DNA of 64,000 bases from Micromonospora cabrerizensis (GTDB lineage Bacteria; Actinomycetota; Actinomycetes; Mycobacteriales; Micromonosporaceae): the NCBI RefSeq assembly GCF_022230955.1, contig NZ_JAKKFI010000045.1, positions 62,001-126,000 of the forward strand, written 5' to 3'. The notes under the pieces were generated by a model that did no database searches, was not told where the DNA came from, and saw only the letters and a program-made list of their open reading frames with translations. Both the position numbers and the translations under genes were made by a program. Of this stretch, positions 36,111-53,839 are shown in pieces (the first letter of the stretch is position 1; every line of letters begins with the position of its first letter).

Positions 36111-37417
36111 TGAGTACACCCCACCTGTCGGTGCTGCTGGTCAGCTGGAACACCCGAGAGCAGACCCGGCAGTGCCTGGAGTCGCTGGCCGCGACCGCCG
36201 ACGCCGACCTGGACTACGAGGTGGTGGCGGTCGACAACGGCTCGTCCGACGGTTCGGCGGACCTGCTGGCCGGCCAACCCCGGGTGCGCCTGATCCGCAA
36301 CAACCACAACACCGGGTTCGCCGCCGCGGTGAACCAGGCGTACCGCCGGGCGACCGGGGAGCTGATCCTGCTGCTCAACAGCGACGTCCGGTTCCACCCG
36401 GGCGCGCTGTCCCGGATGATCGACTACCTGCGGGAGCGGCCGGACGTGGCGGGGGTCAGCCCGCTGTACCTCAACCCGGACGGCACGTTCCAGCAGCACT
36501 ACGTCCAACAGCCGAGTTTCGTCGCGACCATCGCGCTGGTCACCGCGCTGCGCCGACTGCCCGGGTTCCGGCAGGCGCTGCACCGCTTCCAGATGCGCGG
36601 TGAGGATTTCAGCCGTCCGCGGCAACTCGCCTCGGGCAGTTGCATGCTGCTGCGCCGTGGGGTGCTCGGGCAGCAGACCATCTTCGACGAGACCTTCCCC
36701 GTCTACTGGAACGACGCTGTCCTCGCCCGCCAGCTCGACCAGGCCGGGCACGAGCTGTGGATGCTCCCGGACGCGGTGGTGACGCACAGCCGGGGCGCCT
36801 CGTGCCGGCTGCTCGGGCCGACCATCCGCTTCCGACACCTCCTGGGCAGCCTGGTCGGCTATCTGCGGATGACCCAGCCTCGGCACCGGATGATGGCGTT
36901 CCGGGCCGCCCTGCTCGCCGACCACCTGGTCAAGCGGCTCTTCGGCCGACCCGTACAACTGGGCCTGACCGACCTGCTGGCCGCGCTGCGCGGCGACGTC
37001 GGCCCGCTGCCCGACGGCGACACCCGCGACTGGGTGGTGCTGTTCAGCCGCTCCCGCTGGTCCGTCGACGGCCATTCCTCGGTGCTGGGGCAGTTGGCGG
37101 GTGGGCAGCGGTTGCTCTTCGTCGATCCGCCGGCACGGCGTCCCCGCTGGCGGTGCGAGGTGACCCCGATCGGCTCGGCGGCCTGGCACGCGGCGCCACC
37201 GACCGCGCTGCCCCTGGGCGACTCGGTGCCCCTGATCAACTGGATCAACCGTCGGGTCGCCGCCAGTGCGCTGCGGGGCTGGCTCGACCGCCAGGCCGGC
37301 GCCCGCCTGCTGCGACTCGACGACGAGCGCGCCCGCCCGGTGCTCGGCCGGCTGGGCGAGGACGAGCTGCTGCCGACCGGAGCGCCCCGGCCGATGGAAC
37401 GGACGGGCCGTGGCTGA
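36110..37417 (+). CDS. GT2 glycosyltransferase fused to a half GT-B domain
   Basis: A 435-residue protein. Residues 1-300 form a GT-A family 2 transferase of the rhamnosyltransferase type: LSVLLVSWNTREQTRQCLES, VDNGSSDGSADLL, NTGFAAAVNQA and the DxD-like LLLNSDVRFHPG. Residues 306-415 (RDWVVLFSRSRWSVDGHSSV, RLLFVDPPARRPRWR, LGDSVPLINWINRR) resemble residues 24-140 of the next gene, the N-terminal half of a GT4 enzyme, but the donor-binding C-terminal half is missing. The extra piece may be a relic or a docking domain. Start overlaps the previous stop (TGATG). Confidence 0.88.
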   Translation: MSTPHLSVLLVSWNTREQTRQCLESLAATADADLDYEVVAVDNGSSDGSADLLAGQPRVRLIRNNHNTGFAAAVNQAYRRATGELILLLNSDVRFHPGALSRMIDYLRERPDVAGVSPLYLNPDGTFQQHYVQQPSFVATIALVTALRRLPGFRQALHRFQMRGEDFSRPRQLASGSCMLLRRGVLGQQTIFDETFPVYWNDAVLARQLDQAGHELWMLPDAVVTHSRGASCRLLGPTIRFRHLLGSLVGYLRMTQPRHRMMAFRAALLADHLVKRLFGRPVQLGLTDLLAALRGDVGPLPDGDTRDWVVLFSRSRWSVDGHSSVLGQLAGGQRLLFVDPPARRPRWRCEVTPIGSAAWHAAPPTALPLGDSVPLINWINRRVAASALRGWLDRQAGARLLRLDDERARPVLGRLGEDELLPTGAPRPMERTGRG

Positions 37418-38576
37418 GCACGCGACCCTGCCACCGGCGGCCCGACCGGCACCCACGGTCGTCACCCCCACCGACGACCGGGACTGGGTGGTCGTCTTCA
37501 GCGGCACCCCGTGGGCGAACGGCGCCCACCGGCAGCACGCGCTGGCCCGTCAGATGACTGTGGACCACCGGGTGCTCTTCGTCGACCCGGCCGGGCACCT
37601 CCCCCGGTGGCGCGTCCGCGTCCGGCAGGTCGCCGACGGCCTGTGGCAGTGCGCCGGGCCGGCGCTGCTTCCGCTCGGCCGCCACCTGCCGCTGGTCAAC
37701 CGGGCCAACCGCTGGTTCGCCGCGCGCCTGCTCCGCCGGTGGTTCCGGCAGCGCGCCGATTCGGTACGACTGCTGTGGCTGGACGAGGACCTGGCCGCGC
37801 CGGTCGCCGCCCGGCTGGACGCGGCCGCCGTGGTGTACGACGCCACCGACCTGGACTGGACGTTCACCCGACGCTGGAACCGTCGGCACCTCCGCCGCGC
37901 GCTGCGCTCGGCCGTGGGCGCCGCCGACCTCGTGCTCGCCTCGTCCAGCGCGCTGCCGGAACGGATGCCCGCCTTCGATCCGGCGCCGGTCGTGCTGCCC
38001 AACGGATGCGACCCGGAGCACTTCTCGCCGGACGGCCCGGTCGCGCCCTGGCTGACCGGGCTGCGCCGGCCCCTGATCGCTTACAGCGGAGCGGTCGACA
38101 CCCGTGCCTTCGACGCGGACCTGGTCGCCGAGGTCGCCCGGGCGCACCCGGAGTGGACCTTCCTGCTCATCGGCCCGTCGACCCGCGCCGGCCGCGCTCC
38201 GCTGACCCAGTTGTCCAATGTGGAGCTTGTCGACGCCGTCGGATTCGCGGACGTTCCGGCCATCCTGCGGGCCTGCGACGTCACGATCATCCCCTACCGG
38301 GTCGGCGGCCTGGTCGACTACGTGCACCCGAAGAAGTGCTACGAGTACCTCGCCCTCGGCAAGCCCGTCGTCGCGACGCCGCTGCCGGCGCTGCGGGCGT
38401 TGGCCGACACCATCGCCCTCGCCGGCGACGCGCCGAGCTTCGCCGCCGCCATCGGCGACGCGCTGGGTGCCGGTTCACCGGAGCAGGCGGCCCGACGCCG
38501 GGCGCTCGCCACCCGCAACAGCTGGTCGGCCCGGGGCGTACAGCTGCGCTCACTGCTGGCGGGGTTGCCCCGATGA
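37410..38576 (+). CDS. GT4-like glycosyltransferase
   Basis: A 388-residue GT-B enzyme. N-terminal Rossmann domain: RDWVVVFSGTPWANGAHRQH, HRVLFVDPAGHLPRWRVRV; linker VVLPNGCDPEHFSPD; C-terminal domain: PLIAYSGAVDTRAFDADLV, TFLLIGPSTRAGRAPL and the donor site YVHPKKCYEYLALGKPVVAT. The GTG at 37410 overlaps the previous stop by 8 bases. Retaining sugar transfer to the lipid-linked intermediate on the cytoplasmic face is likely; the sugar is unknown. Confidence 0.88.
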   Translation: MAEHATLPPAARPAPTVVTPTDDRDWVVVFSGTPWANGAHRQHALARQMTVDHRVLFVDPAGHLPRWRVRVRQVADGLWQCAGPALLPLGRHLPLVNRANRWFAARLLRRWFRQRADSVRLLWLDEDLAAPVAARLDAAAVVYDATDLDWTFTRRWNRRHLRRALRSAVGAADLVLASSSALPERMPAFDPAPVVLPNGCDPEHFSPDGPVAPWLTGLRRPLIAYSGAVDTRAFDADLVAEVARAHPEWTFLLIGPSTRAGRAPLTQLSNVELVDAVGFADVPAILRACDVTIIPYRVGGLVDYVHPKKCYEYLALGKPVVATPLPALRALADTIALAGDAPSFAAAIGDALGAGSPEQAARRRALATRNSWSARGVQLRSLLAGLPR

Positions 38577-39889
38577 GAGTGCCGATCGTCGCACCCACCG
38601 TGCTGCTCGGTGGCGCCGGGCTGGGCGGTCTGGTGACCGTGGTGACCCTGCTGCCCGGGCCGATCGGCCTGGCCGCCGCCGTCGCGGTGCTGAGCTGGGG
38701 CGTGTTCCTGCTCTGGCCCTGGGCCGTGCTGCCGGTCGGAATCGTCGGCGGCGCCGTGGTCGGCGCCCTGCTCAGCGGCGGGGACGTGCGCGGGTTCATC
38801 GCGGTGAAGGTGCTGCTGCTGGCCACCGGCGGTGCCGCGCTGGCCCTACGCCACTGGCTGCGGGTGGAGGCGCCACCGCGACGCACCGCCGCCGACCTGG
38901 GCATGCTGGGCCTGATCGGCCTGACCGTCGTGGCGGCGATCTACGGTCTGGCCGTCGGCAACCTCCCGACGGAGGTGCTGGTCGCCGCGTACCAGGTGGC
39001 CACGATCCCGGTGTACTTCTTCGTCGCGACCCACACCCTCACCACGCCCCGTCGCGTCCTGGCCGCCGGTGTCCTGTACGTGGTGCTGGCGGCCGCCTTC
39101 ACCGCCATCTCGGTCGCCGCGCCGGGGCGGCACGGCGGACTCATCACACTCATGGCGATCCCGGCGCTGATCTGGGTCGCCGGCCGGTTGAGGGGTTGGC
39201 GTCGCAACGGCGTCCTCCTGCTCGGCGGGTTCTTCGCCGTCGACGTGCTGCTCGCGTCGTACCGGGGAATCTGGCTCGCCGCCGCGCTGACCTTGCTGAT
39301 CATGCTGGTCCGCGGTGGCCGCACCGTCCGGACCGGCCTGGCCGCCACCGCCGTCGCGGCGGTCGCGGTGGCGTCGGTCCTCGCCCTGCAACCGGGGGTA
39401 CGCGAGAGAGCCGGCGAGATCACCAAGGGATTCCAGCAGTCGGCCGGCTACCGGGGTGTGGAGTCGTCGGTGGGCCTGAACGTCTTCGCCGACCAGCCGT
39501 TGGTCGGGGCCGGGCTCGGCCAGACCACGCCGGACATCTACCTGTCCGGCTTCACCTTCACCGACGTCGGGCCGGTCTACCACGCCTTCTACGTCACCGT
39601 GTTGGCCAACCTGGGGCTGGTCGGCCTTCTGCTGGTCCTCTGGCCGATCCTGCGCAGCATCCTCGTCGGACTGCGCGGTCGCGACGGGATCACGCTGCCG
39701 TTCGCGGCGCTGTCCTGCGGTTTCCTGGCCGCCGCCGTCTTCGCCGCGCCGACCGACGGGCACTGGGAGCTGGGCCTCCTGCCGGCGCTGACCCTCCTCA
39801 CGGCCCAGCAGGACGGTGAGCGGCTCCGGCGACTCGCCGGAGCCCCGCTCCTGCGCCGGCAACTGCACCGGACGGGAGTCACGGCATGA
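38573..39889 (+). CDS. O-antigen polymerase/ligase family membrane protein (Wzy/WaaL-like)
   Basis: A 438-residue protein with about 12 membrane helices. The Wzy_C-type region includes DVLLASYRGIWLAAALTLLI, and the periplasmic loop with FADQPLVGAGLGQTTPDIYL, then YHAFYVTVLANLGLVGLLLV (the usual H-N-x-x-x-x-x-x-x-G-x-x-G pattern with His). It would polymerise repeat units outside the membrane. Start overlaps the previous stop (ATGA). Confidence 0.85.
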   Translation: MRVPIVAPTVLLGGAGLGGLVTVVTLLPGPIGLAAAVAVLSWGVFLLWPWAVLPVGIVGGAVVGALLSGGDVRGFIAVKVLLLATGGAALALRHWLRVEAPPRRTAADLGMLGLIGLTVVAAIYGLAVGNLPTEVLVAAYQVATIPVYFFVATHTLTTPRRVLAAGVLYVVLAAAFTAISVAAPGRHGGLITLMAIPALIWVAGRLRGWRRNGVLLLGGFFAVDVLLASYRGIWLAAALTLLIMLVRGGRTVRTGLAATAVAAVAVASVLALQPGVRERAGEITKGFQQSAGYRGVESSVGLNVFADQPLVGAGLGQTTPDIYLSGFTFTDVGPVYHAFYVTVLANLGLVGLLLVLWPILRSILVGLRGRDGITLPFAALSCGFLAAAVFAAPTDGHWELGLLPALTLLTAQQDGERLRRLAGAPLLRRQLHRTGVTA

Positions 39890-40833
39890 GACAGCCCGCC
39901 GCCACCGCCGTCGTGGTCACCCACAACTCGGAGCGACAGATCGTCGCCGCCCTGACCGCGCTGCGGCAGGCCGAGCTGCCGGTGCGGTTGGTGGACAACG
40001 CCTCCACCGACGGCACGGTCGAGCTCGTCCGACGCCGCTTTCCGGAGGTGACGGTCCTCGCCAGCCCGACCAACACCGGGTTCGCCACTGCCGTGAACCG
40101 GGCCGCGGCCGGAGTCGACACCGATGTGGTGCTCCTGGTCAACCCGGACTGTGTGGTCACTCCCGGCACGGTGGCGGAGCTGGTCCGGGTCATCCGTGCC
40201 CGAGGATCGGTGGGCATCGTGGGACCACGGCTCATCGACGCGCACGGCCGGATCGCGATCAGCGCCCACCGGTTCGAATCCCTCGTCACGGTGCTGGCCA
40301 GCCGCTTCGGTGGGGCGCTGGTGCCGGTCGGGCTCCGGCGGCTGCTCAGCGGCCGGCAGCGCCGGGCCGCGTACGACGCCTGTGTGCGGGGTGCGCAGCC
40401 GGTGGCGGTGGACTGGCTCTCCGGTGCCTGCCTGGCGGTGCGGACCGACCTGTTCGTGGCGATCGGCGGGCTCGACGAGGGCTACTTCCTGTACTACGAG
40501 GACGAGGAGCTGTGCCTACAGGCCGCCCGCCGTGGCGCCGAGGTGCTGTACGTGCCCTCGGTGACCGCCGTGCACACCGGCGGCGCGAGCAGCTCCGACC
40601 CGGCCTGGATCTGGCCACACCTGTACCGCAGCATGCTGCGGTTCTTCGCCCGCCACCGAGCCGGCACCCTGCGCGCCGTACGCGGTGCCGTGCTCCTGCG
40701 CGCGCTGATCGGTATCGGTCTGGCCGGGGTGCGGTGGCCCGTACAACCCCGCGCCGGAAGGGCACGACTGCGGGCCTGGGCCCGCGTCGGCCGAATCGCG
40801 ATCACCCGACCTGAGACGAGAGGAGGAGCGTGA
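39886..40833 (+). CDS. GT2 glycosyltransferase (rhamnosyltransferase-type)
   Basis: A 315-residue GT-A family 2 enzyme: TAVVVTHNSERQIVAALTAL, LVDNASTDGTVELV, SPTNTGFATAVNRA, DVVLLVNPDCVVTPG (metal-binding region) and VDWLSGACLAVRTDLFVAIG followed by GLDEGYFLYYEDEELC. It resembles WbbL-type rhamnosyltransferases. The C-terminal 70 residues are strongly basic. Overlaps both neighbours by 1-4 bases. Confidence 0.88.
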   Translation: MRQPAATAVVVTHNSERQIVAALTALRQAELPVRLVDNASTDGTVELVRRRFPEVTVLASPTNTGFATAVNRAAAGVDTDVVLLVNPDCVVTPGTVAELVRVIRARGSVGIVGPRLIDAHGRIAISAHRFESLVTVLASRFGGALVPVGLRRLLSGRQRRAAYDACVRGAQPVAVDWLSGACLAVRTDLFVAIGGLDEGYFLYYEDEELCLQAARRGAEVLYVPSVTAVHTGGASSSDPAWIWPHLYRSMLRFFARHRAGTLRAVRGAVLLRALIGIGLAGVRWPVQPRAGRARLRAWARVGRIAITRPETRGGA

Positions 40834-42032
40834 TGCACGTCCTGACCACGGTCGTCGGCAAGCGCACCGAGCACTGGACGGACCTGTTCGACGTGCTGTG
40901 CGAACAGCCGGACGTCACCCTGACCGTGCTCGCCGCGGACGTGTCCCCGACGACGCGACGCGAGCTGGCCCGGCTGGCTCGCAGACACCACCGGCTGCGG
41001 TACCACGTCGTCCCGCACCTGCTCGGCGAGTCGCTGACCGGGCACATGGCGTCGGTGCTGTTCCGGCTGCCCGGCCAGCACGACGTGACCACCGCCCGTC
41101 CCGACATCCTGCACGTCATCGGTGAGGCGGCGTACCTCACCACCTGGCAGGCGCTGCGGCTGCGTCAGCGCTGCTGGGCCGGGGTCCCCACCACGTTGTA
41201 CGCCGCGCAGAACGTGGTCACGCGCTTTCCGGTGCCGTTTCCCCGGATCGAGCGGCAGTCCTACCTGTCCGTGAACCACGCCTTCCCGATCACTCCCGCC
41301 GCGCTTAACGTGCTGCGGGTCAAGGGCTACCGGGGCCCGGCGACGATCGTGCCGCTCGGCGTGGACACCCGGGTCTTCCGCCCACTGCCCACCGATTCGG
41401 CCACGCGCCCGTTCACGGTCGGGTTCGTCGGGCGGTTCGAACCGCACAAGGGCGTGGCCGACCTGCTGCGCGCCGCCGAGCTGGTCAACTGCGACGTGTC
41501 GCTGGTCGGGGACGGCAGCCTGAGCGGCGAGATCGAGCGGGCCGCCGCGCGGCGTCCCGGCCGGGTGCACCGGCACGGCTGGGCCGGGCACGCCGAGCTG
41601 CCCGCCCTGCTGAACCGGATGGACGCGCTGGCGATGCCGTCGGTCGAGGTGGTGCAACGCAACACCCTGCCGTGGATCGGCATTCCGCTGCGTGAGCAGT
41701 TCGGTCGGGTGCTGGTCGAGGCCATGGCCTGTGGCGTACCCGTCGTGGGCAGCGACGTCGGCGAGATCCCGTACGTGGTGGGCGACGCCGGTCTCGTCTT
41801 CCCCGCCGGCGACGTCCCCGCGCTGGCCGCCCGCCTCGCGCGACTGCGCGACGATCCCGCACTCGCCGGCAAGCTGGCGAACCGAGGGCTGCACCGAGCC
41901 GGCACGGAGTTCGGCTGGGACCGCATCGCCGAAACCCTCTGCACGACCTGGCGCGGACTGCGGTCCCCCACCCGCTCCCTTCGCACACCGCCCGCCGAGG
42001 CCGGGCAACCAACAAGAGAGGCGATCGCCTGA
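40833..42032 (+). CDS. GT4 glycosyltransferase
   Basis: A 399-residue GT-B enzyme. Acceptor domain residues 1-180 (PDILHVIGEAAYLTTWQALR, TTLYAAQNVVTRFP); donor domain with FTVGFVGRFEPHKGVADLLR, and the E-x7-E motif in EQFGRVLVEAMACGVPVVGS followed by DVGEIPYVVGDAGLVFPAGD. ATG at 40833 with GAGGAG upstream; the GTG one codon earlier is also possible. Stop overlaps the next start (TGATG). Confidence 0.9.
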   Translation: MHVLTTVVGKRTEHWTDLFDVLCEQPDVTLTVLAADVSPTTRRELARLARRHHRLRYHVVPHLLGESLTGHMASVLFRLPGQHDVTTARPDILHVIGEAAYLTTWQALRLRQRCWAGVPTTLYAAQNVVTRFPVPFPRIERQSYLSVNHAFPITPAALNVLRVKGYRGPATIVPLGVDTRVFRPLPTDSATRPFTVGFVGRFEPHKGVADLLRAAELVNCDVSLVGDGSLSGEIERAAARRPGRVHRHGWAGHAELPALLNRMDALAMPSVEVVQRNTLPWIGIPLREQFGRVLVEAMACGVPVVGSDVGEIPYVVGDAGLVFPAGDVPALAARLARLRDDPALAGKLANRGLHRAGTEFGWDRIAETLCTTWRGLRSPTRSLRTPPAEAGQPTREAIA

Positions 42033-44125
42033 TGAGCGCGTCGATAGATGTCAAGGGCCTGCTCGGTGTCTCCTGGCGCCGGGTGGGCGTACCGCTGATC
42101 GGCCTGTGCGCGGGCCTGGCCGCCGCCCAGGGAGTCACCCAGCTCCTCCCGGCACGCTACGAGGCCGAGGCGTCCGTGCTGGTCAGCGCCGAGCAGACCG
42201 AGGAGGACAAGCCGGCGGACCTAGCCCTCGCGCAGAACCTCACGCCGACCATCGCCCGGCTGGTCGGATCCCGGGAGGTCGCGATCGAGGCGGCACGCTC
42301 GCTGCAACTGCCCGAGCACGCGGTGCTCGGGCACGTCAGCGGAGAGTACGAACTCGGTCTCCAGATCATCACCGTGCACGCGAGCGCCGGCACCGGTACG
42401 CAGGCCGCCGCGATCGCGAACGCGGCCTCCCGTGCCGTCAGCCAGCAGTTGAGCCGATTGGACATGGGCGGCTCGACCAGCATCAACGCCCGGGTGCTCG
42501 ACACCGCCAGCCCGCCGGTCACGCCCGCCTTCCCGAAGCCGATGTTGAACGGCGTGCTCGGGGCCCTGGCCGGTCTGCTGGCGGGGTGGGGCGCGACCCT
42601 TCTCCGTGACCGGTTCGACAGCCGGCTGCGCGACGTCGGGCAGATCGAGGCGCGCCTGGGCCTGCCGGTCCTCGGAGTGCTGCCGAAGCTGCCGCGCCGG
42701 TTCGCCCGCCACCACGCGGCCGCGCTGTACCGCCGCACCGACGTCGCCGACGCCGTACGCGCCACGATCTCGACGCTCAGCGTGCTCACCGCCCCGCTGC
42801 CACGTCGGAGGCTGCTGGTGACCAGCGCCCACGACGACGACGGCAAGGCGTTGGTGACCGCGCTGCTCGGTCTCGGCATGGCCGACGAGCACTGCCGCGC
42901 CACACTGGTGGACGGGGCGGTCCGGGACCCGGTGCTGTCCGGTCACTTCCCGGAGGCGCCGCACACCTGGCAGCAGGTGCTGACGCAGAAGTGCCCGCCG
43001 GTGCGTCTGGTCGACTTCCCCACCCTGACCGTGCTGCCCGCCGAGCCCCGCGAGGGCTCCGACACGCAGGCCCTGCACGATCTGGGCGGGCTGCTCAACA
43101 CCCTGGGCGAGGACGAGGACTGCGTGCTCGTGCACGCTCCGCCGATCCTGGCGGGGCGGGAGATCTCGGCGTTCGCCCAGCACGCGGACGGCGTGCTGCT
43201 GGTCGTACGGGCTGGTCGGACCAACCTTGACGACAGCACCCGGGCGGCCCGACTCGTCCAGCGGCTCGGGCTTCCGCTGGCCGGTGTCGTGGTGATCGGC
43301 GCGGTGTCCCGGACGGACCACCGGCAGGGCGGCGAGCAGCCGGACCTGGTGCCGGACACGGTCCAGAACACCCTGGCGCTGCCGGCGGCAAGAGCGGGCG
43401 CCCAGGGCGCCGTCATCCGGGAACTGGTCAGCGCTCTCGTCGAGGACTCCTCCGGCAGCACGCCCGGGCGGCACCGCCGACAGACCCGGGACCCGGGCGA
43501 AGCGGCGGGCGCGACCGGACACGGCCGGACGGTCGAGGGCACCACTGTGGAGGGCACGACGGCACGGCACGCGCCGGTCAGGCACACAACGCCGGTGCAG
43601 AACGTGACGCCGTCGCAGAACGTGAAGCCGGTCGAGCGCGCAACGCCGGTTCAGAGCGCGACACCGGTCGAGCGCCCGACGCCGGCCGAGCGCACCCCGG
43701 CCGGCCCGACACCCGGTCCCGTCGACGCACCGGTCGAGTCGAGCCGGTTCGAGGATGCCATCACCCAGCCCAACCCGGTGGTGCGGGACGTCCCGGATCA
43801 CCCCGGGCCGGTGGCGACGCCGAGCGTCCAGCCTGATCCCACCGAGGCCCCTCCGGTCTGGGGCGGCCCCGCCGTGGTGGGCGTCCGCGGGCGACCGCTG
43901 GCCCAGCCCGAGGCGACCCGGAGGCCGCCGACGGCCGAGGCAGCGGCCGAGGCGACGGCGACGGAGCAGTCCCCGGACGCATCGATGTCCAACCTCGCGG
44001 AGCGCTGGCCGGTCTACGGGCAGGCGCTTCTCGCTGCCGCACGGTCGAGCACGGAACGACCCTCCTCCGGGTCCATCGTCCTGCGCCGGGCGGTGGCCGT
44101 CGGCGATGCCGAGCGCCGGAGCTGA
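42032..44125 (+). CDS. Wzz/chain-length-determinant protein with degenerate BY-kinase domain and repeat tail
   Basis: A 697-residue protein. A Wzz-type region with flanking helices (VGVPLIGLCAGLAAAQG near 18-35; LNGVLGALAGLLAGWGATLL near 172-191) is followed by a cytoplasmic tyrosine-kinase-like domain (240-450). Its nucleotide motifs are eroded: Walker A position reads TSAHDDDGKALVTA with no Ser/Thr after Lys, the A' site reads VDGAVRDP instead of DADxRxP, and Walker B reads VLVHAPPIL with His in place of Asp. There is no tyrosine cluster. Residues 519-554 are six 6-residue repeats of the TPVER type in a disordered Pro/Thr-rich tail. It is probably a chain-length or export scaffold without kinase activity. 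Confidence 0.85.
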   Translation: MSASIDVKGLLGVSWRRVGVPLIGLCAGLAAAQGVTQLLPARYEAEASVLVSAEQTEEDKPADLALAQNLTPTIARLVGSREVAIEAARSLQLPEHAVLGHVSGEYELGLQIITVHASAGTGTQAAAIANAASRAVSQQLSRLDMGGSTSINARVLDTASPPVTPAFPKPMLNGVLGALAGLLAGWGATLLRDRFDSRLRDVGQIEARLGLPVLGVLPKLPRRFARHHAAALYRRTDVADAVRATISTLSVLTAPLPRRRLLVTSAHDDDGKALVTALLGLGMADEHCRATLVDGAVRDPVLSGHFPEAPHTWQQVLTQKCPPVRLVDFPTLTVLPAEPREGSDTQALHDLGGLLNTLGEDEDCVLVHAPPILAGREISAFAQHADGVLLVVRAGRTNLDDSTRAARLVQRLGLPLAGVVVIGAVSRTDHRQGGEQPDLVPDTVQNTLALPAARAGAQGAVIRELVSALVEDSSGSTPGRHRRQTRDPGEAAGATGHGRTVEGTTVEGTTARHAPVRHTTPVQNVTPSQNVKPVERATPVQSATPVERPTPAERTPAGPTPGPVDAPVESSRFEDAITQPNPVVRDVPDHPGPVATPSVQPDPTEAPPVWGGPAVVGVRGRPLAQPEATRRPPTAEAAAEATATEQSPDASMSNLAERWPVYGQALLAAARSSTERPSSGSIVLRRAVAVGDAERRS
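43586..43693 (+). repeat. Six 18-base tandem repeats in coding sequence
   Basis: Six consecutive degenerate units encode TTPVQN, VTPSQN, VKPVER, ATPVQS, ATPVER and PTPAER in the tail of the Wzz-like protein. Confidence 0.75.
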
Positions 44126-44212
44126 CGACGGCTGGGACGACCGCCTCCGGCCCGCAGGGATCAGGCGGACCGCCCAGATGACTACCCGAGACACCGATAA
44201 GGAGATCTGCCG

Positions 44213-45076
44213 ATGAGTGAGATGTTGGTGCCGACACAGGCGTCCGAGCCGATGCTGGACGACCCGCGCGCCCTCTACTGCGACCTGCTCAAGAAAGCGC
44301 TGACCAGGTACGTCTTCCGCGAGACGTGGATGCCCTACCAGCCGCGCCGGGGGTCCCTGCACGGCAAGCTCTACCAGCGTGGCCGGCACCTGCTGCAACG
44401 CAAGGGGCTGGAGCTGGTCCTCCAGTTCCCGTTCGACGAGGAGGCACGGGCCACCGGCCGGGACTGGCCGCCGGAGGCCGAGACCATGATCGGTCTGCGC
44501 CGGCTGGACAATCTGGAGCGGTGCATCGCGGACGTGCTGGACCGGGGCGTGCCCGGCGACCTGATCGAGACCGGCGTGTGGCGGGGCGGGGCGGTCATCT
44601 TCATGCGCGGGATGCTGCGCGCCTACGGTGACCGGGACCGGACGGTGTGGGTCGCGGACTCGTTCCGGGGTCTGCCGAAGCCGGCGCCCCACCGGATCGA
44701 GGACGTCGAGGACGGGCTCTGGCAGGTGCCCTTCCTGGCCGTGTCGCTGGAGCAGGTGAAGGCCAACTTCGACCGGTACGGGCTGCTCGACGACCAGGTC
44801 CGCTTCCTCAAGGGCTGGTTCGCCGACACCCTGCCGGACGCGCCCGTGGAGCAGATCTCGGTGATGCGTCTCGACGGAGACCTCTACGACTCGACGATGG
44901 TGGCGCTGCGCTCGCTCTACCCGAAGCTCTCGGTCGGCGGGTACGTGATCATCGACGACTACCACGCGGTACGCGGCTGCAAGCAGGCCGTCGACGACTT
45001 CCGCGCCGCGCACGGCATCGTGGACGAGCTGCACCAGGTCGACTGGACGTGCCGCTACTGGCGGCGGTCGCGCTAG
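44213..45076 (+). CDS. TylF/MycF-family O-methyltransferase
   Basis: A 287-residue member of the macrocin O-methyltransferase family, which methylates sugar hydroxyls. Conserved pieces: LERCIADVLDRGVPGDLIET then GVWRGGA (SAM site), VWVADSFRGLPKP, VRFLKGWFADTLPDAP, the metal site SVMRLDGDLYDSTM and GGYVIIDDYH, and a C-terminal HQVDWTCRYWRR. ATG at 44213 follows AAGGAG. It lies 87 bases behind the Wzz-like gene and ends the operon before a strong hairpin; likely decorates a polymer sugar. Confidence 0.9.
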   Translation: MSEMLVPTQASEPMLDDPRALYCDLLKKALTRYVFRETWMPYQPRRGSLHGKLYQRGRHLLQRKGLELVLQFPFDEEARATGRDWPPEAETMIGLRRLDNLERCIADVLDRGVPGDLIETGVWRGGAVIFMRGMLRAYGDRDRTVWVADSFRGLPKPAPHRIEDVEDGLWQVPFLAVSLEQVKANFDRYGLLDDQVRFLKGWFADTLPDAPVEQISVMRLDGDLYDSTMVALRSLYPKLSVGGYVIIDDYHAVRGCKQAVDDFRAAHGIVDELHQVDWTCRYWRRSR

Positions 45077-46733: not shown

Positions 46734-47786
46734 CTAGTTCGCCGGTGGCGTCTGCGGGTTGGCCGCGAGCCACTGCGCCACGCGGTCGTCGCGCAGGGCC
46801 GTGAAGAGCGCCGGGGCCCGGACCTCGTCCAGCCGTACCGCGGACCCGGCGGGGGTCTGCAGGTTGGCGTCACTGAAGGGGACGGTGACGAACTGGACCG
46901 TCTCGGGCTTCACCTTGCGCAGCGCGAGGGTGAGGTCGGCCAGATTGAGGTCGCGGTCGACGATCAGCGACTCCGCTGCCGTGGTGAGCACCCGGTCGAG
47001 CCGGGTCGGGCTGGTGAGCAGACTCGTCGCGGTGACCCGCTCGGCGAGGGCACGCACCACGAGCTGCTGGTCGTGGATGCGCCCGAAGTCACCGCCGGGC
47101 ACGCCGTGCCGCTGCCGCATCAGGTCGTCGGCCGCCTTGCCGTCCAGGTCGTGACAGCCGGCGAGCCAGGTGACGCCGGTGTCCGAGGACTTGACGGTGT
47201 ACGGCAGGCACACGTTGATGCCCTCCACCGCGTCGACGAGCTTGCGGACGGCGGCGAAGTTCGCCACCAGCACTCCGTCCAGCGGCAGGCCGGTGAGTCT
47301 GGCGACCGTCTCGGCGGCCAGCGCGGCCCCACCGAACGCGAACGCGGCGTTGATCTTGTTCGGTCCGCCGGACCAGGTCTGCCCCGCGGCGGGCACGTGG
47401 ACGTAGCTGTCCCGGGGGATGGAGACGACGGTGGCACCGTCGCGGGCGGCGTTGACGTGCACCAGCATGATGGTGTCCGACCGCTCCCCCGGATAGAGGG
47501 CCTGGTCCGGCTCGCCGTCGCGGGAGTCCGACCCGAGCAGCAGGAGGTTGAGCGGTCCCGACTTCCACCGGCGCTCGTCGCGGGGGCCGGTGCCCTGACC
47601 GAGGATGTCCTCGCGCTGCACCCGGCTCTCGTACCGGTGCTTCAGGCCGAAGCCGACCGTGACGACGCCCCCGCAGAGCACGCCGAACAACGCGATCAGG
47701 GCGACCATGGCCTTCTTCCAGCGCGCCACGGCCCGCCATCGCGACGTCGCGGGCGGGACCGTCCGGCGGGGGTTTCCGGGCACCAT
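46734..47786 (-). CDS. LytR-CpsA-Psr (LCP) family glycopolymer transferase
   Basis: A 350-residue membrane-anchored enzyme with an N-terminal helix (KKAMVALIALFGVLCGGVVT, about 19-45) and an extracellular LCP domain: LNLLLLGSDSRDGEPDQ, ERSDTIMLVHVNAARDGAT, VVSIPRDSYVHVP, NKINAAFAFGG, and RQRHGVPGGDFGRIHDQQ with the conserved arginines and acidic residues for pyrophosphate/Mg binding. LCP proteins attach lipid-linked glycopolymers to peptidoglycan. ATG at 47786 follows GAGGTGG. It is divergent from the exosortase operon and probably anchors the polymer made by this locus. Confidence 0.92.
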   Translation of the reverse strand: MVPGNPRRTVPPATSRWRAVARWKKAMVALIALFGVLCGGVVTVGFGLKHRYESRVQREDILGQGTGPRDERRWKSGPLNLLLLGSDSRDGEPDQALYPGERSDTIMLVHVNAARDGATVVSIPRDSYVHVPAAGQTWSGGPNKINAAFAFGGAALAAETVARLTGLPLDGVLVANFAAVRKLVDAVEGINVCLPYTVKSSDTGVTWLAGCHDLDGKAADDLMRQRHGVPGGDFGRIHDQQLVVRALAERVTATSLLTSPTRLDRVLTTAAESLIVDRDLNLADLTLALRKVKPETVQFVTVPFSDANLQTPAGSAVRLDEVRAPALFTALRDDRVAQWLAANPQTPPAN

Positions 47787-47978
47787 CTTGACCACCTCTG
47801 ACCAACCTGTCGGGACGCCTGAACCTGTTGCGGGGCAAGGGAAGTCGGCGTGAGCGGCTGACACCCTTCCACCTAAGGAGTATTTAATCACTCTTTAGGG
47901 TTTCCATGCCGCTTTATCCTCTTTGCCCGATTCACCCGATGCCATTCTGGCCTCCGGGTTAGCGAGGGGGGTTTGGGC
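47787..47978. promoter_or_regulatory. AT-rich divergent promoter region of LCP and exosortase genes
   Basis: This 192-base region is locally AT-rich between about 47870 and 47925 (TTTAATCACTC then TTTAGGG). No coding potential seen. It must carry promoters for the LCP gene leftward and the micro-protein/exosortase operon rightward. Confidence 0.4.
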
Positions 47979-48128
47979 ATGTACGGAGTACCCACCAAGG
48001 GGCCACACATCGGCGGCGGTCTCGCCGCCACCGGGGTCGCCATTCAGTCGTGGTTGCTGGTCGGCGTCGGGCTGGTCGTGCTGGGCCTGGCGTTGTGGTT
48101 CGTCGCGATGTTGGGCCGCGAGCGATGA
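47979..48128 (+). CDS. 49-residue membrane micro-protein with LAATG motif, upstream of the exosortase gene
   Basis: MYGVPTKGPHIGGGLAATG is followed by one hydrophobic helix (about residues 20-43) and the basic end LGRER. This is the three-part layout of a cell-wall sorting signal: LAxTG (class E sortase type), helix, positive tail, but with almost nothing in front of it. A GAGGGGGG ribosome site precedes the ATG, and the TGA overlaps the ATG of the exosortase gene (ATGA), so translation is coupled. It could be a decoy, regulator or partner of the sorting enzyme. Function not known; I know of no named family. Confidence 0.7.
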   Translation: MYGVPTKGPHIGGGLAATGVAIQSWLLVGVGLVVLGLALWFVAMLGRER

Positions 48129-48667
48129 CGGCTTCCCCACGGGGGGCGTGGTTGCGCGCCAGTGCGGGGATCCTGTTCGGCATCGCCGTCGCCGCCGCCA
48201 CCCTGTGGCGGTGGCACGACATCGCCAGCGGCGAGGCGTGGCTCAACGCCAGGCTGGTCGACGCGGTCGGGTTGGCCGACGCCAGGTCGATCGGCGCGGC
48301 CGTCATCTTCCCGCTGGACGAGCGCTGGGTCGGCTTCATGGTCTCCAGCGGCTGCTCGGTCGCCATGTTGCTCATCCCGCCGATCGTGCTGGCCTCGACG
48401 CTCGTCGGCTTCCGGCGCATCTCGGTGTCCCGCGGGCTGAACGCCCTGGCGATGGCCATCGTGCTGCTGGTCACGGTGAACCAGTTCCGGCTCGCCGCGG
48501 TGGTGGTCTCGATGCAGACCTGGGGCTTCCGGCTCGGCTACGAGCGCAGCCACGTGCTGATCGGCTCGGTGATCACGACCGCTGGCCTGATCGCTGTCGC
48601 GATCCTGTTCGTGGTCCTGGTCAGCCGCACCAAGCGGCTCCGTGGAGGGATCGCCGGTGTCCACTGA
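48125..48667 (+). CDS. Exosortase/archaeosortase-family transpeptidase-like protein (XrtP-like)
   Basis: A 180-residue integral membrane protein with four clear helices (about 10-28, 67-95, 104-130, 144-167). The family's catalytic triad is visible in order: Cys77 in VSSGCSVAMLLIPPIVL, Arg122 in VTVNQFRLAAVVV, His143 in GYERSHVLIGSVI. It is much shorter than proteobacterial exosortases (usually 250 or more residues) and fits compact actinobacterial/archaeal sortase relatives. Such enzymes cut and anchor proteins with C-terminal sorting signals; a candidate substrate with such a signal lies two genes downstream. Start fixed by the ATGA overlap. Calling it exosortase P is from memory of the choice-of-anchor P association. 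Confidence 0.85.
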   Translation: MTASPRGAWLRASAGILFGIAVAAATLWRWHDIASGEAWLNARLVDAVGLADARSIGAAVIFPLDERWVGFMVSSGCSVAMLLIPPIVLASTLVGFRRISVSRGLNALAMAIVLLVTVNQFRLAAVVVSMQTWGFRLGYERSHVLIGSVITTAGLIAVAILFVVLVSRTKRLRGGIAGVH

Positions 48668-50189
48668 GACCCAGTCCCTCGCACTGCTCAACACGGCGGC
48701 GTTCCTGCTGTGTGTCAGCTTCTGCGCGTACGTGCTGAGCATCCTGGTGTTCCACCTCAAGAGCCGACGTAGTCGGGGCGGCAGCCCGGACGGCTTCGAC
48801 TGGCACATCATCGTGCCGTGCCGCAACGAGGCCTCGGTCGTCGGCGGCACGGTCCGGCGACTGCTCAGCGACTTTCCCCAGGCAACCGTCTGGTGCGTCG
48901 ACGACGCCTCCGACGACGGCACGCTCGCCGAACTGGCCGCCTTCGCCGACCAGCCTCGGGTGCACGTCATCGAGCGTCAGCTGCCGGACGCGCGGCAGGG
49001 CAAGGGCGCCGCTCTCAACGCCGCCTGGCGCCGCATCGAGCAGTGGTTGCCGGCCAACGCCGACCGCACCCGGGTGATCGTGGGCGTCCTGGACGCGGAC
49101 AGCCGACTCGACCCGCAGGGTCCCGTCGCCCTCTCCGGGCGGCAGTACTTCGGCGGGGAGGAGGTCGGCGCCGTGCAGGTGGAGGTGCGGATGCTCCAGT
49201 GCGCACCCCGTCGGTACGCCCCGACGACCGAGGTCAGCGGCTGGGGACGGCTGCTGATCCGGTTGCAGGACATGGAGTTCCGCGCACCGATCGCCGCCAT
49301 GCAGTCCCTACGCCGACGGACCGGCAGTGTCGCGATGGGCGGCAACGGCCAGTTCACCCGGCTGTCGCTGCTCAACGAGATCGCCGACGAGCACGGCACA
49401 CCGTGGCACGGGGCCCTGCTGGAGGACTTCGAGCTGGGCCTGCACATCCTGCTGGCCGGTGGGCGCACCGAGTACTGCTCGGAGAGCTGGGTGGCCCAGG
49501 AGGCACTGACCCGGATCGGGCCGCTGGTGCGGCAACGCACCCGCTGGGCTCAGGGGTCGATGCAGTGCGGCCGCTACCTCGGCAGGGTGCTGCGGTCACC
49601 GCGGATCCGCAACTCCGCGACCCTGGAGATCGCCCACTTCCTGGCCGCACCGTGGACCCAACTGCTCGGTACGCCGGTCTATCTCGCCTGCCTCGTGGTG
49701 ATGAGCTACTACATCGACAACACCACCGGTGGGTTGCAGGGCTGGTGGAGCAGTGGCGGCTGGGGCGTACCCCCGCTGGTGCTCGTCTTCGGTGTCGGGC
49801 CGTTCGCCCTGTGGGGCATCGTCTACCGCTCCCGGTGTGAGCCGCAGTTGTCGGTGACCAGAGCGTTGCTGCTCGGTGTCTGCCACTGGCTCTACAGCTA
49901 CGCCCAGTCGTTGGCGGTCTGGCTGGCCTTCGCCCGCATGGTGACCGCCCGCACCGACTGGCAGAAGACCGCGCGTGCCGCGGATCCGCCCACACCACCG
50001 GCCCCGGTCCGGGCCGTGGGTCGAGTGGCCGTGCCGGCCCAGCCGCGCCGGGTGCAACCGCCGCGCAGATCTGGTCGCGCCGACGGACCCCGCTCGATCA
50101 GGCCGCCCCGGCACCTGACCCACCTCTCGCACCTCACCACCACCCCCACCACCACAGACCGCCCCACAATCGCCCACGTCAGAAAGTAG
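48657..50189 (+). CDS. Processive GT2 glycosyltransferase (cellulose/hyaluronan-synthase-like)
   Basis: A 510-residue membrane glycosyltransferase. An N-terminal helix (about 10-35) is followed by the GT-A domain: HIIVPCRNEASVVGGTVRRL, WCVDDASDDGTLAEL, VGVLDADSRLDPQG (DxD), EDFELGLHILLAGG (TED-like) and the processive QRTRWAQGSMQCGRYL (QxxRW). Three or four C-terminal helices and a basic Pro-rich tail of about 75 residues follow. GTG at 48657 has GGAGGG 7 bases upstream; the gene overlaps the exosortase stop. It may make a polymer or glycolipid used with the sorted protein. Confidence 0.88.
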   Translation: MSTETQSLALLNTAAFLLCVSFCAYVLSILVFHLKSRRSRGGSPDGFDWHIIVPCRNEASVVGGTVRRLLSDFPQATVWCVDDASDDGTLAELAAFADQPRVHVIERQLPDARQGKGAALNAAWRRIEQWLPANADRTRVIVGVLDADSRLDPQGPVALSGRQYFGGEEVGAVQVEVRMLQCAPRRYAPTTEVSGWGRLLIRLQDMEFRAPIAAMQSLRRRTGSVAMGGNGQFTRLSLLNEIADEHGTPWHGALLEDFELGLHILLAGGRTEYCSESWVAQEALTRIGPLVRQRTRWAQGSMQCGRYLGRVLRSPRIRNSATLEIAHFLAAPWTQLLGTPVYLACLVVMSYYIDNTTGGLQGWWSSGGWGVPPLVLVFGVGPFALWGIVYRSRCEPQLSVTRALLLGVCHWLYSYAQSLAVWLAFARMVTARTDWQKTARAADPPTPPAPVRAVGRVAVPAQPRRVQPPRRSGRADGPRSIRPPRHLTHLSHLTTTPTTTDRPTIAHVRK

Positions 50190-50195
50190 ACATCT

Positions 50196-51059
50196 ATGCC
50201 ACGAGTTAGATCCGGTCTCGCCCGTACCGCCGCGGTGCTGGCCGGTGGCCTCGCCATGGTCGTCCTGGCGGCCTCTCCGGCCATGGCCGACACCTCCCAG
50301 TCCTCAGCCTCCGCACTACAGATCAGCCTGCTCGGTGGTGGCCTCGCGAGTTCCGGCACCGCGTCGGCCACGAACGACGGCACCACCGAGTCGATCTCCG
50401 GAAACCAGACTCCCCCTCTGGGCGTGCTCGGCGGGCAGACCGTCATCACCGCCGGGGTGTTGGTCCAGAACGTCCGGGCCTTCAACGACGGCACCTCGGC
50501 GGCCTGCGCCGGCGTGCTCGGCGTCGGCGGCACGGTGACCATCGGTCCCGGCGGGTCGTGCCTCGTCACGCCCGGCGCCGGGGTGTCGCTGGTCCTCGGG
50601 ACCAGCGGCCTCGCCTCGATCGCCCTGGTGGCCGACGCCATCACCTCGCAGTGCACGGCCACCAGCAGCCCGTCGGCGACGGGTTCGACGAGCCTGGTGA
50701 ACGCCCGGATCACGTCGACGCTGCTCGGCATCGAGACGACGCTGCTCAGCCTGCCGGTCAACCCGGCGCCCAACACCGGGCTGAACGTCCCGGGGCTGCT
50801 CAACCTGACCCTCAACGCACAGTCCAGCTCGGGTGTCGGTCAGTTGACCGTCACGGCGCTGAACCTGACGGCGCTCGGTGGAGCGCTGGCAGGGGTGACC
50901 ATCGGCACGTCCAGCTGCGGTGCCAACGCGATCGCACCCCCCATTCCGGTGATCCCGCTGGCCGGGGCACCGATCGCGCTCGGTATCGGCGCACTCGTGG
51001 CCGGCACCACCGGCGGGTTCTCGCTCTGGCGGCGTCGCCGCGCGGCAGCCAGGAGCTGA
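50196..51059 (+). CDS. Secreted choice-of-anchor-type protein with exosortase-like C-terminal sorting signal
   Basis: A 287-residue exported protein. Residues 1-31 are a Sec signal (AVLAGGLAMVVLAASPAMA-D). The body (about 32-245) is Ser/Thr/Gly-rich, beta-type, low in charge, with Cys pairs. The C-terminus (248-287) is a three-part sorting signal: proline-rich PPIPVIPLAGAP, one hydrophobic helix ending TTGGFSL, then WRRRRAAARS. It contains no LPxTG. This fits the choice-of-anchor P class and makes it the evident substrate of the exosortase encoded two genes upstream. It begins 6 bases after the glycosyltransferase stop. Confidence 0.85.
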   Translation: MPRVRSGLARTAAVLAGGLAMVVLAASPAMADTSQSSASALQISLLGGGLASSGTASATNDGTTESISGNQTPPLGVLGGQTVITAGVLVQNVRAFNDGTSAACAGVLGVGGTVTIGPGGSCLVTPGAGVSLVLGTSGLASIALVADAITSQCTATSSPSATGSTSLVNARITSTLLGIETTLLSLPVNPAPNTGLNVPGLLNLTLNAQSSSGVGQLTVTALNLTALGGALAGVTIGTSSCGANAIAPPIPVIPLAGAPIALGIGALVAGTTGGFSLWRRRRAAARS

Positions 51060-51065
51060 CCCGAC

Positions 51066-52226
51066 ATGTGTGCGAGCAGATCGACATCACGAGAGGTTTT
51101 GATCCTGGCCGGCACCAGGCCGGAAGGGGTCAAGACCGCGCCTCTGATCCGCCGTCTCCTCGATGACCCGAGGTTCACGGTGCGGGTGGCGGACACCGGT
51201 CAACAGCCGGGACGCGTCGCTGAGGCACTCGCCCCGTTCGGCCTCCACCCGGAGGTGAGCCTGCGCCCGCAACGGCACACCGGCTCGCTGGCGGAGTTGG
51301 CGGCGGCACTGATCACGGGGATCGACGATCTGGTCACACACCACCGTCCAGCGGCGGTCGTGGTGCAGGGGGACACCACGACCGCCCTGGCCGGCGGGAC
51401 GGTCGCGTTCTGGCGGCGCGTTCCCGTCGTACACCTGGAGGCCGGGCTGCGGACGGGCGACCTGGATCGGCCGTTCCCGGAGGAGGCTAACCGGGCCATG
51501 CTCGCGCGCATCGCGGCGCTGCACCTGGCGCCGACCCCGGCGGCCAGGGCGAACCTCATCGGCGAGGGCATCCCCTCGGACGCGATCGTGGTGACCGGCA
51601 ACACGGTCGTGGACGCGCTCCAGGATCTGGTCGAGCGAGGCACGGCCCAACCACCGACCTGGGTCGACCCGGGCCGGAAGCTGGTGGTGGCGACCGTGCA
51701 CCGCCGGGAGAACTGGGGTCACGGGGTGGCCGCCACACTGGACGGTCTGAGCCGGTTGGCGCGACGCTGCCCCGAGGTTCAGATCGTGATGGTCGCCCAT
51801 CCCAACCCGCAGGTCAGCGCAGCGGTCACCGCGGGGCTGACCGGCATCGCCAATGCCCGAGTCACTCCACCACTGCCCTACCCGCAGATGATCGGGCTGC
51901 TGCGGGTGGCCGACCTGATCGTCACCGACTCGGGTGGGCTTCAGGAGGAGGCCGCCACCCTGGGGGTCCCGTTACTGGTCACCAGGGACACCACGGAACG
52001 GCCGGAGGCCCTGACCGCGGGCCGCGGCGAGCTCGTCGGCACCGACCCGGAGCGGCTCGTGTCGGCCGGGCTTCGGTACCTCGCCGTCGGGCGCGGCGGC
52101 GCGGTCGGCTCGCCGTTCGGCGACGGGAAGGCCAGCGAACGCTCGGTCGCCGCCATGGCGGGGCTGTTGAGCCTGCCGGTCCCCCGCGTGGCGCAGCGTC
52201 GCCGGGTCGTCTCCCCCGCCGCCTGA
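51066..52226 (+). CDS. wecB: UDP-N-acetylglucosamine 2-epimerase (non-hydrolysing)
   Basis: A 386-residue WecB/MnaA-type enzyme converting UDP-GlcNAc to UDP-ManNAc. Motifs: LILAGTRPEGVKTAPLIRRL, VVVQGDTTTALAG, VHLEAGLRTGDLDRPFPEEA, VVATVHRRENWG, IVMVAHPNPQV and TDSGGLQEEAATLGVPLLV. It starts 6 bases after the anchor-protein gene, in one operon with the exosortase group, so ManNAc-type sugar is probably a component of this locus's polymer. A 12-residue N-terminal extension precedes the fold. Confidence 0.92.
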   Translation: MCASRSTSREVLILAGTRPEGVKTAPLIRRLLDDPRFTVRVADTGQQPGRVAEALAPFGLHPEVSLRPQRHTGSLAELAAALITGIDDLVTHHRPAAVVVQGDTTTALAGGTVAFWRRVPVVHLEAGLRTGDLDRPFPEEANRAMLARIAALHLAPTPAARANLIGEGIPSDAIVVTGNTVVDALQDLVERGTAQPPTWVDPGRKLVVATVHRRENWGHGVAATLDGLSRLARRCPEVQIVMVAHPNPQVSAAVTAGLTGIANARVTPPLPYPQMIGLLRVADLIVTDSGGLQEEAATLGVPLLVTRDTTERPEALTAGRGELVGTDPERLVSAGLRYLAVGRGGAVGSPFGDGKASERSVAAMAGLLSLPVPRVAQRRRVVSPAA

Positions 52227-52354: not shown

Positions 52355-53839
52355 GTGCAGGCGTGGTTCAACGGGCAGCGATCCCCGACGCTGGAGGGCC
52401 GGTATTCGGCCCAGCACAACGCCTTCGGCGTGCTTCGCCTGGCGATGGCGTGCGGCGTGATCGTCGCGCACGCCGGGCCGCTGGGCTTCGGTCAGGCGAA
52501 CGTCGGAGCGGCGACATTCGGCCGGCAGAGTGACCTCGGCACCATGTGCCTGTACGGATTCTTCCTGATCTCCGGATATCTCATCACCGAAAGCGCACTG
52601 CGCTCCACGCTGCGCCAGTACGTCCGCGCCCGGGTGCTGCGCGTCTTTCCGGGACTGTGGGCCTGCCTGCTCGTCACCGCGTTCGTCTTCGCCCCCCTGG
52701 CGGCGCTGTACGAGAACGGCAACCTCGACGGCTTCTGGGGGCACCCGGAGGGGCCCTTCGACTACGTCCTGACGAACCTCGTCGCCTCGATGGAGCAGTT
52801 CCCCATCTCCGGGCTGCTGGCCGACACCCCGTACGGGCAGATCGTCGGCGGACCCAGCGCGTTCGACGGGTCACTGTGGACCCTGCGGTACGACCTGGCC
52901 CTCTACGCCGTCGTCGGCATCCTCGTGGTGACCTCGGTCCTGCACAAGGCGCCTCGCGCGGTGCTGGTCCTGACCGCCGGCTCGTACGCGCTGATCCTGG
53001 CGGACTTCTTCACGGCACCGACCTGGAGCTCCCGGCCGCCGCAGCACGGCGCGATCGGACCGTTCCCGCTGATCGGCGCCTTCGCCGCCGACTGGACGTT
53101 GATGCTCGGCTTCCTGTTCCTGCTCGGTGCCGCCGCACGGCTCTACGCGCACCGGATCCCCGTGAACCGGGAGCTGGCCGTACTGGCCTCGGTGGTGCTG
53201 GTCGGATCACTGTGGCTGGGCGGGTTCTTCGCGGTCGGCCTGCCGGCGTTCGCTTACCTCGTGCTGTACGCGGCGGTCGCGCTGCCGAAGCGGCTGTCCA
53301 CGATCAGCCGCCGGCACGACTACACGTACGGCATCTACATCTACGGCTTCCCGGTGCAGCAGCTGGTCGCCCTGTTCGGCGGCGCCCGGTTCGGGATCGT
53401 CGTCTACATCGTGCTGAGCCTGCTCGGCGCCCTGCTCTTCGCCATGCTGTCCTGGCACCTGGTGGAACGCCCGGCCCTCGGCCTCAAGACCGGCAGTGGG
53501 CGCGCCCGGCACCGCCAGACCAGCCGCGCCGCCAGCCCGCCCGCCCTGCCGATCCCCGCACCGGTGACCGCCGCGGCCACCATTCCGCGTCCCGACACGG
53601 CCGACACCGGACGGCGCAGGGCCGGCGCCCGGCACAGCCGGTCGACGAAGATCGAGCAGCCCGCGGTGACCGTGCCGAGTGGTGCGGGTCAAGCCTATGT
53701 CGACAGTCTGCCCTTCCTGGCCCGGCCCGAACGGGTCAGGACGGAAGCCCTGCCGGGCTCGACGAAGAAGCCGACCTCGCACGCGCGATCGGGGCGGGCA
53801 CGCCACGCGCAGCCAGCCTCGAAGACACCCTCTCAGTGA
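52355..53839 (+). CDS. Acyltransferase 3 family membrane protein
   Basis: A 494-residue protein. About ten membrane helices in residues 20-375 with FGVLRLAMACGVIVAHAGPL (conserved Arg/His), LYGFFLISGYLITES, RVLRVFPGLWACLL and SLWTLRYDLALYAVVGI are the hallmarks of OafA/ExoZ-type O-acyltransferases. A disordered basic tail of about 115 residues (SRAASPPALPIPAPVTAAAT and on) is unusual. GTG at 52355 follows GAGGAG. It lies 128 bases behind wecB with an AT-richer gap that may hold its own promoter. Likely acylates the surface polymer. Confidence 0.87.
   Translation: MQAWFNGQRSPTLEGRYSAQHNAFGVLRLAMACGVIVAHAGPLGFGQANVGAATFGRQSDLGTMCLYGFFLISGYLITESALRSTLRQYVRARVLRVFPGLWACLLVTAFVFAPLAALYENGNLDGFWGHPEGPFDYVLTNLVASMEQFPISGLLADTPYGQIVGGPSAFDGSLWTLRYDLALYAVVGILVVTSVLHKAPRAVLVLTAGSYALILADFFTAPTWSSRPPQHGAIGPFPLIGAFAADWTLMLGFLFLLGAAARLYAHRIPVNRELAVLASVVLVGSLWLGGFFAVGLPAFAYLVLYAAVALPKRLSTISRRHDYTYGIYIYGFPVQQLVALFGGARFGIVVYIVLSLLGALLFAMLSWHLVERPALGLKTGSGRARHRQTSRAASPPALPIPAPVTAAATIPRPDTADTGRRRAGARHSRSTKIEQPAVTVPSGAGQAYVDSLPFLARPERVRTEALPGSTKKPTSHARSGRARHAQPASKTPSQ

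Follow-up and report, generated by a model that had tools for sequence, protein, structure and literature searches.

An LAxTG microprotein, a compact exosortase-family protein and a membrane glycosyltransferase share a conserved gene set in Micromonospora cabrerizensis and its relatives

The window analyzed here is a stretch of 64,000 nt from Micromonospora cabrerizensis (assembly GCF_022230955.1, contig NZ_JAKKFI010000045.1, positions 62,001-126,000). On its forward strand it carries five closely packed genes, which encode, in order, a microprotein of 49 residues (47979..48128), a compact exosortase of 180 residues (48125..48667), a membrane glycosyltransferase of family 2 (GT2) with processive-type motifs (48657..50189), a predicted secreted choice-of-anchor-P protein of 287 residues, hereafter the anchor (50196..51059), and WecB, a non-hydrolysing UDP-GlcNAc 2-epimerase for UDP-ManNAc supply (51066..52226). 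The first three genes overlap by 4 and 11 bases, and the two remaining gaps are of 6 bases each; the 4-base overlap was present in all nine tabulated loci, and the 11-base overlap in eight of them. Because of this tight spacing and these overlaps, the set from the microprotein gene to wecB likely forms a single operon, as judged from the gene layout. The original prediction for this stretch had described the exosortase, the processive GT2 between it and the secreted protein, and wecB next in line, and all of these were recovered; the 49-codon gene that heads the set had been missed.

The 180-residue product of 48125-48667 has several hydrophobic segments, and the residues Cys77, Arg122 and His143, proposed earlier as an exosortase triad, are indeed present. 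Unchanged Cys, Arg and His in a polytopic membrane protein are among the features expected of the superfamily. When tested against hidden Markov models, the protein matched the general exosortase/archaeosortase model TIGR04178 (23.7 bits against a cut-off of 23; 25.5 bits in the genome search), and it was the sole match to this model in the window's genome. The alignments with the XrtR, XrtS and XrtP models spanned residues 20-169, i.e., most of the protein, and the predicted structure was a helical model with a mean predicted local distance difference test score (pLDDT) of 83.3. The triad was unchanged in all 21 exosortase loci compared, in which the other 20 copies are 24-89% identical to that of the window. 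At E ≤ 0.001, 19 of the 21 matched TIGR04178, and all 21 matched XrtP, XrtR and XrtS; at least one exosortase tested alone, that of L076, fell below the TIGR04178 cut-off (18.0 bits). The 27 homologues compared are mostly named 'hypothetical protein' by NCBI and 'exosortase/archaeosortase family protein' by JGI, and those named by organism all come from Micromonospora or Plantactinospora. Triad loss in close homologues had been put forward as a sign against the assignment: in an alignment of such homologues the triad was complete in 27 of 28 proteins, and in the copy of Micromonospora sp. DT233 (P0019), which lies outside the 21-locus set, Tyr replaces the Cys and Leu replaces the His. The DT233 microprotein (P0125) is intact although the triad is gone, and this strain is a natural loss of the exosortase active site. 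At another locus (L069, genome G310), a 227-residue protein with a weak XrtR match (21.6 bits) directly adjoins a different GT2, and might represent a further diverged exosortase pair.

The GT2 gene has its best start at 48657, a GTG codon preceded by GGAGG. The protein carries the motifs DD (82-83), DxD (146-148), ED (256-257) and QRxRW (293-297), the last of which is the signature of processive GT2 enzymes. These motifs were unchanged in 24 of 24 aligned relatives, 19 of them from the 21 exosortase loci (L009 and L086 were left out) and five from loci that lack an exosortase. With NF053846, named 'XrtP-associated glycosyltransferase', the GT2 scored 510.5 bits (510.9 in the genome search) and so stayed below the cut-off of 520; the next-best model, PgaC, gave 39 bits, far below its cut-off of 422.3. 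Only two of 354 family genomes passed the NF053846 cut-off, namely G337 (531 bits), in which an exosortase adjoins the GT2, and G321 (609.6 bits). WecB matched TIGR00236 with 319.8 bits (cut-off 210.15). At L086 (7594-9098, reverse strand), the GT2 gene is split across two frames, by a frameshift or a sequence error. A related GT2 (∼300 bits) together with wecB, and without exosortase, was seen in many family genomes (L030-L040 and L088-L090); in L090 a DUF2334 protein comes next.

The anchor matched the choice-of-anchor P model NF040603 (45.8 bits, cut-off 27). Its N-terminal part contains a hydrophobic segment, and the structure model shows a beta domain (mean pLDDT of 78 for the whole protein and below 60 for the tail) in which four Cys are unchanged across 32 aligned proteins. 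As had been proposed, its C-terminus (APPIPVIPLAGAPIALGIGALVAGTTGGFSLWRRRRAAARS) has the layout of a sorting signal, with PVIPLAG followed by a hydrophobic helix and RRRR, and no LPxTG. The Pro-Glu-Pro motif of PEP-CTERM is absent from the anchor, and PVIPLAG stands in its place. The pattern P..P..G was present in all 19 aligned locus anchors (20 loci have an anchor, and that of L009 was left out of the alignment) and in 28 of the 32 proteins, two of these being duplicates; the 32-protein alignment took in 13 of 91 homologues, two of which are the same proteins as those of L073 and L076. A profile built from 14 tails was run against 21 genomes. In the window's genome the anchor scored 72.1 bits and the next match 21.7 bits, the latter spanning only positions 10-34 of the profile. 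This genome holds one choice-of-anchor-P protein, one exosortase and one strong P..P..G tail, and the claim of a single dedicated substrate-like protein was borne out. A second, weaker tail match (36.4 bits) was found in genome G734 (C17:36537-36635), within a frame of 965 codons that is possibly a second substrate there.

Outside the genus, the anchor-P domain was detected in 23 of 80 chosen genomes. It was present in eight of the ten with a strong exosortase, and in five of the ten it lay, by the NF040603 model, at the exosortase locus; the number is low because this model misses diverged anchors, e.g., those of G025 and G097. Ten anchor-P loci outside the genus were opened (L144-L153; the C-termini of L148 and L153 could not be read clearly). 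Five paralogues located away from exosortase loci end right after the domain and have no tail (L144-L147, and L151 from an exosortase genome), and the proteins of L149, L150 and L152 stop soon after the domain in the called frames. Since the off-locus paralogues are tail-less, it seems to be the tail, rather than the anchor-P domain, that accompanies the exosortase. L087 (9613-12655) has no anchor-P gene; its GT2 is followed by a 777-residue protein and a 224-residue protein, the latter hydrophobic over a stretch at its N-terminus and ending in a helix/Arg tail.

The microprotein gene overlaps the start of the exosortase gene by the 4 bases mentioned above. Its product has a short N-terminus (MYG..KGP..GGG), an LAATG motif, a single transmembrane (TM) segment at 26-44, after the motif, and the end RER. 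Over all pairs of eight copies (that of the window and seven relatives), substitutions at codon positions 1, 2 and 3 numbered 215, 69 and 541, and codon differences were synonymous in 447 cases and nonsynonymous in 225; because changes concentrate at the third position, the gene is taken as coding. Across 19 copies only L15, T18, G19 and G36 are unchanged. Motif position 2 is Ala in the exosortase loci that have a microprotein, except G142, and also in G321; it is Pro in three other microprotein loci that lack an exosortase. Every tabulated copy carries a net positive charge on the C-terminal flank and no net charge on the 15 residues preceding the TM segment, so an N-out orientation is predicted. 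LAXTG is the signal of class E sortases, cleaved by SrtE, according to the accessible text of PMC5148588, and the microprotein has the LAxTG motif, TM segment and basic end of such substrates. It lacks a signal peptide: the sole hydrophobic segment of its 49 residues follows the motif. With LAXTG_small_WW (NF058583) it scored 28.4 bits, below the cut-off of 65. A profile search at E ≤ 0.01 returned at least 70 relatives, many of which bear the name LPXTG cell wall anchor protein. Sortase genes were found in all 21 genomes examined; the window's genome has eight, all of them located on other contigs than the locus. Their presence means no more than that a sortase would be available.

The conservation of the set was analyzed in 354 Micromonosporaceae genomes, searched with the GT2 and XrtR models. 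XrtR matches were found in 29 genomes, and those above 45 bits were kept (20 loci in 19 genomes); GT2 matches above 400 bits also came from 20 loci in 19 genomes. In 19 loci the exosortase and the GT2 lie side by side. The G142 exosortase adjoins a 282-bit GT2, and G321, which holds the best GT2 together with a microprotein, has no exosortase adjoining and no XrtR match in the genome. With the XrtP model, 396 genomes of the phylum yielded two matches at E ≤ 1e-6, the window's own and that of G734, a genome listed in the same phylum and not in the same class, whose locus repeats the order microprotein, exosortase, GT2, anchor. The 21 exosortase loci have an adjacent GT2 in every case, an anchor in 20, wecB in 19 (upstream in G142) and a microprotein in 16; the L075 anchor came from tblastn, and several microproteins came from a pattern search and not from the gene caller. 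For the exosortase, the anchor, the GT2 and wecB, the original prediction of a common gene set in a Gram-positive was supported. Among 160 Micromonospora genomes, exosortase (> 65 bits), GT2 (> 450 bits), anchor-P and microprotein (> 75 bits) were each strongly matched in nine, and these are the same nine genomes. For the microprotein, 133 of the 160 matched at E ≤ 0.001, and the nine above 75 bits were kept (the next scored 44.5 bits); the weak matches in the genus lie mostly inside long open frames. Since the genes form one locus, this co-occurrence counts as joint gain or loss and not as independent events.

Among the known systems closest to the set are two groups of NCBIfam models made by family curators. 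The exosortase shares with XrtP, XrtR and XrtS (NF012139, NF012138 and NF033767) a length class of 155-160 positions, a near full-length alignment and the triad region, and differs in its 54-69 bits against cut-offs of 145-200; no genome of the 354 reached the XrtR cut-off and none of the 396 that of XrtP. By score, it belongs to a clade outside the named subfamilies. The GT2 and the anchor are like NF053846 and NF040603, the former falling just below its cut-off, and the name of NF053846 implies that curators had already paired an exosortase with this glycosyltransferase. Going by the names of NF053846, NF040603, NF012138 and NF012139, this kind of system is already known to them, so that the earlier claim of a little-described arrangement does not hold as stated. 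Among the matches listed from a search of open-licence papers, none dealt with such an operon or with the steady place of the microprotein in it.

The PEP-CTERM/EpsH system, as the accessible part of PMC1569441 presents it, has a similar tripartite tail, a Cys/Arg/His enzyme and polysaccharide genes nearby. Here, in contrast, there is no PEP motif, the enzyme has 180 residues instead of at least eight TM helices, there is one substrate, and the host is Gram-positive; in that 2006 description, as far as its accessible text goes, PEP-CTERM was confined to outer-membrane bacteria and not found in actinomycetes. The microprotein resembles the LAXTG substrates of class E sortases in motif, TM segment and basic end (PMC5148588, accessible part), and departs from them in having no signal peptide and only 14 residues ahead of the motif, and in that its gene set includes an exosortase. 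Archaeosortase A with PssA/PssD is also a sorting enzyme beside an acceptor-making gene, in Methanosarcina, although the pathway there is one of lipids and here one of glycans; PssA is needed for lipid attachment and cleavage (accessible text of PMC7157517). A joining of protein to glycan has published analogues, again from the accessible portions of the papers: type IX secretion joins a C-terminus to a linking sugar by an amide bond (PMC7468200), and the authors on cyanobacterial CrtB propose that polysaccharide, or another molecule, becomes linked to the processed protein (PMC12188702).

We propose, with a probability of about one half, that the conserved gene set, headed by the LAxTG microprotein, serves as a system dedicated to protein sorting and surface glycan. 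WecB would supply UDP-ManNAc, and the GT2, fed UDP-ManNAc or UDP-GlcNAc, would extrude an amino-sugar polymer. The anchor would cross the membrane via Sec and halt at its tail, where Cys77 of the exosortase may cut near P..P..G and form a thioester with the cut protein. The new C-terminus could then be passed to an amine acceptor provided by the neighbouring enzymes, in the form of either the glycan or its lipid-linked starting unit. The microprotein would sit N-out, and a class E sortase may cut its LAxTG to give a cell-wall tether for the complex. From the genes, motifs, adjacency and co-occurrence observed we infer that the exosortase may join the anchor to the GT2 product and that a sortase may act on the microprotein. 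Since exosortase and synthase genes adjoin even in distant relatives, it is likely that the cluster fixes protein and polysaccharide to a Gram-positive surface. A far more specific version is improbable, namely that a sortase attaches the outer 18 residues of the signal-less microprotein to the wall while a new exosortase clade joins the dedicated protein covalently to the amino-sugar polymer, so that two unrelated sorting enzymes serve one synthase and yield a wall-tethered conjugate.

Several observations weigh against this proposal. TIGR04178 was passed by 0.7 bits only, and every subfamily cut-off was missed (XrtR, 68.9 bits against 150; XrtS, 64.2 against 145; XrtP, 54.3 against 200), as was the Pfam gathering score for Exosortase_EpsH (PF09721, 18.2 against 25.7). 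Structure searches returned no informative fold. In L080 and L123 no wecB adjoins the core, and the secreted protein of L087 is a different one. The anchor-P domain is not tied to the exosortase, because 15 of the 70 genomes examined from other Micromonosporaceae genera that have no strong exosortase contain it. Five exosortase loci (G025 twice, G096, G097 and G099) have another gene upstream instead of the microprotein. A GT2 with an LAxTG or LPxTG microprotein also occurs without a neighbouring exosortase, in G321 and in three of 11 inspected weaker GT2 loci, and therefore the synthase does not need the exosortase. Finally, epsH disruption left methanolan production unaffected, as recounted in the accessible part of PMC1569441.

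The role of the microprotein is the point at which another reading comes nearest, and it is quite conceivable, if somewhat short of an even chance, that the GT2 uses it as a small structural or regulatory subunit which is never cut, its LAxTG being incidental. It travels with the GT2 also where the exosortase is absent, it has no signal peptide, and all eight sortase matches of the window's genome are on contigs other than that of the locus. A subunit of this kind sits less well with the restriction of unchanged residues to L15, T18, G19 and G36, with Ala or Pro at position 2 as in sortase motifs, and with the net positive C-terminal flank of every tabulated copy. As to the acceptor, it is possible, though doubtful, that the exosortase cuts the anchor and links it to a membrane lipid, in the way suggested for archaeosortase A, and that this protein then holds the GT2 polymer only non-covalently. 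ArtA substrates are lipid-anchored in the accessible text of PMC7157517, and in Aquincola a PEP-CTERM protein keeps extracellular polysaccharide bound to the cells, by the accessible account of PMC9850573; the conserved neighbours here, however, are GT2 (21/21) and wecB (19/21), and no lipid enzyme was seen to recur beside the core in the compared loci.

That the GT2 makes a short glycolipid serving as exosortase acceptor, and not a polymer, is unlikely. Several non-polymer GT2 models also match weakly and the core encodes no separate exporter, but QRxRW is kept in all 24 GT2s and a polymer-synthase model, PgaC, ranks second after NF053846, albeit at the low score given above. It is highly improbable that the exosortase homologue is dead or a repurposed membrane protein: although the DT233 copy has neither the Cys nor the His and yet comes with an intact microprotein, the triad persists in 21 of 21 locus copies at identities as low as 24%.

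The acceptor to which exosortases attach their substrates is an open question in the field. In the system proposed here, a single enzyme acts with one substrate, one synthase and one epimerase in a culturable actinomycete without an outer membrane, and because all of it is encoded in a single gene set, mass spectrometry could reveal the acceptor directly. Culturable species that have the module include M. chokoriensis and M. wenchangensis. The microprotein connects sortase-type with exosortase-type sorting in a way that is still unexplained. Where it is replaced (L079, L080 and L083-L085), the upstream gene encodes 319-391 residues, with a GAF domain in both proteins tested (L079 and L083) and a weak GGDEF match besides in L083. 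In the three weaker loci without exosortase noted above, from the 11 best, an LPVTG microprotein lies directly upstream of the GT2.

Two flanking genes are not part of the core. Downstream, an acyltransferase-3 membrane protein (52355..53839, forward strand; PF01757) is possibly a polymer modifier, and an acyltransferase was found within the fetched stretches of 10 of the 21 loci. Upstream and divergent, an LCP-family glycopolymer transferase is encoded on the reverse strand (46734..47891; TIGR00350, 126.3 bits), with a start at 47786 preferred by the gene caller. This gene, described by the original prediction, is present; its membership in the module did not hold up, since it was found within the fetched stretches of only six of the 21 loci, all close relatives. 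Upstream of the microprotein, at 47880-47930, lies an AT-rich block (atttaatcactctttagggt...ttatcctcttt) that is kept in six close copies, in a window of 72% GC; it is possibly a regulatory site common to the divergent pair. A polysaccharide cluster occupies 36107-45076, with two GT2s, two GT1s, a Wzy_C protein, a TylF methyltransferase and a Wzz-like protein that scores below the Pfam gathering score. Further genes continue upstream of this cluster to 30476, as indicated by gene calling alone.

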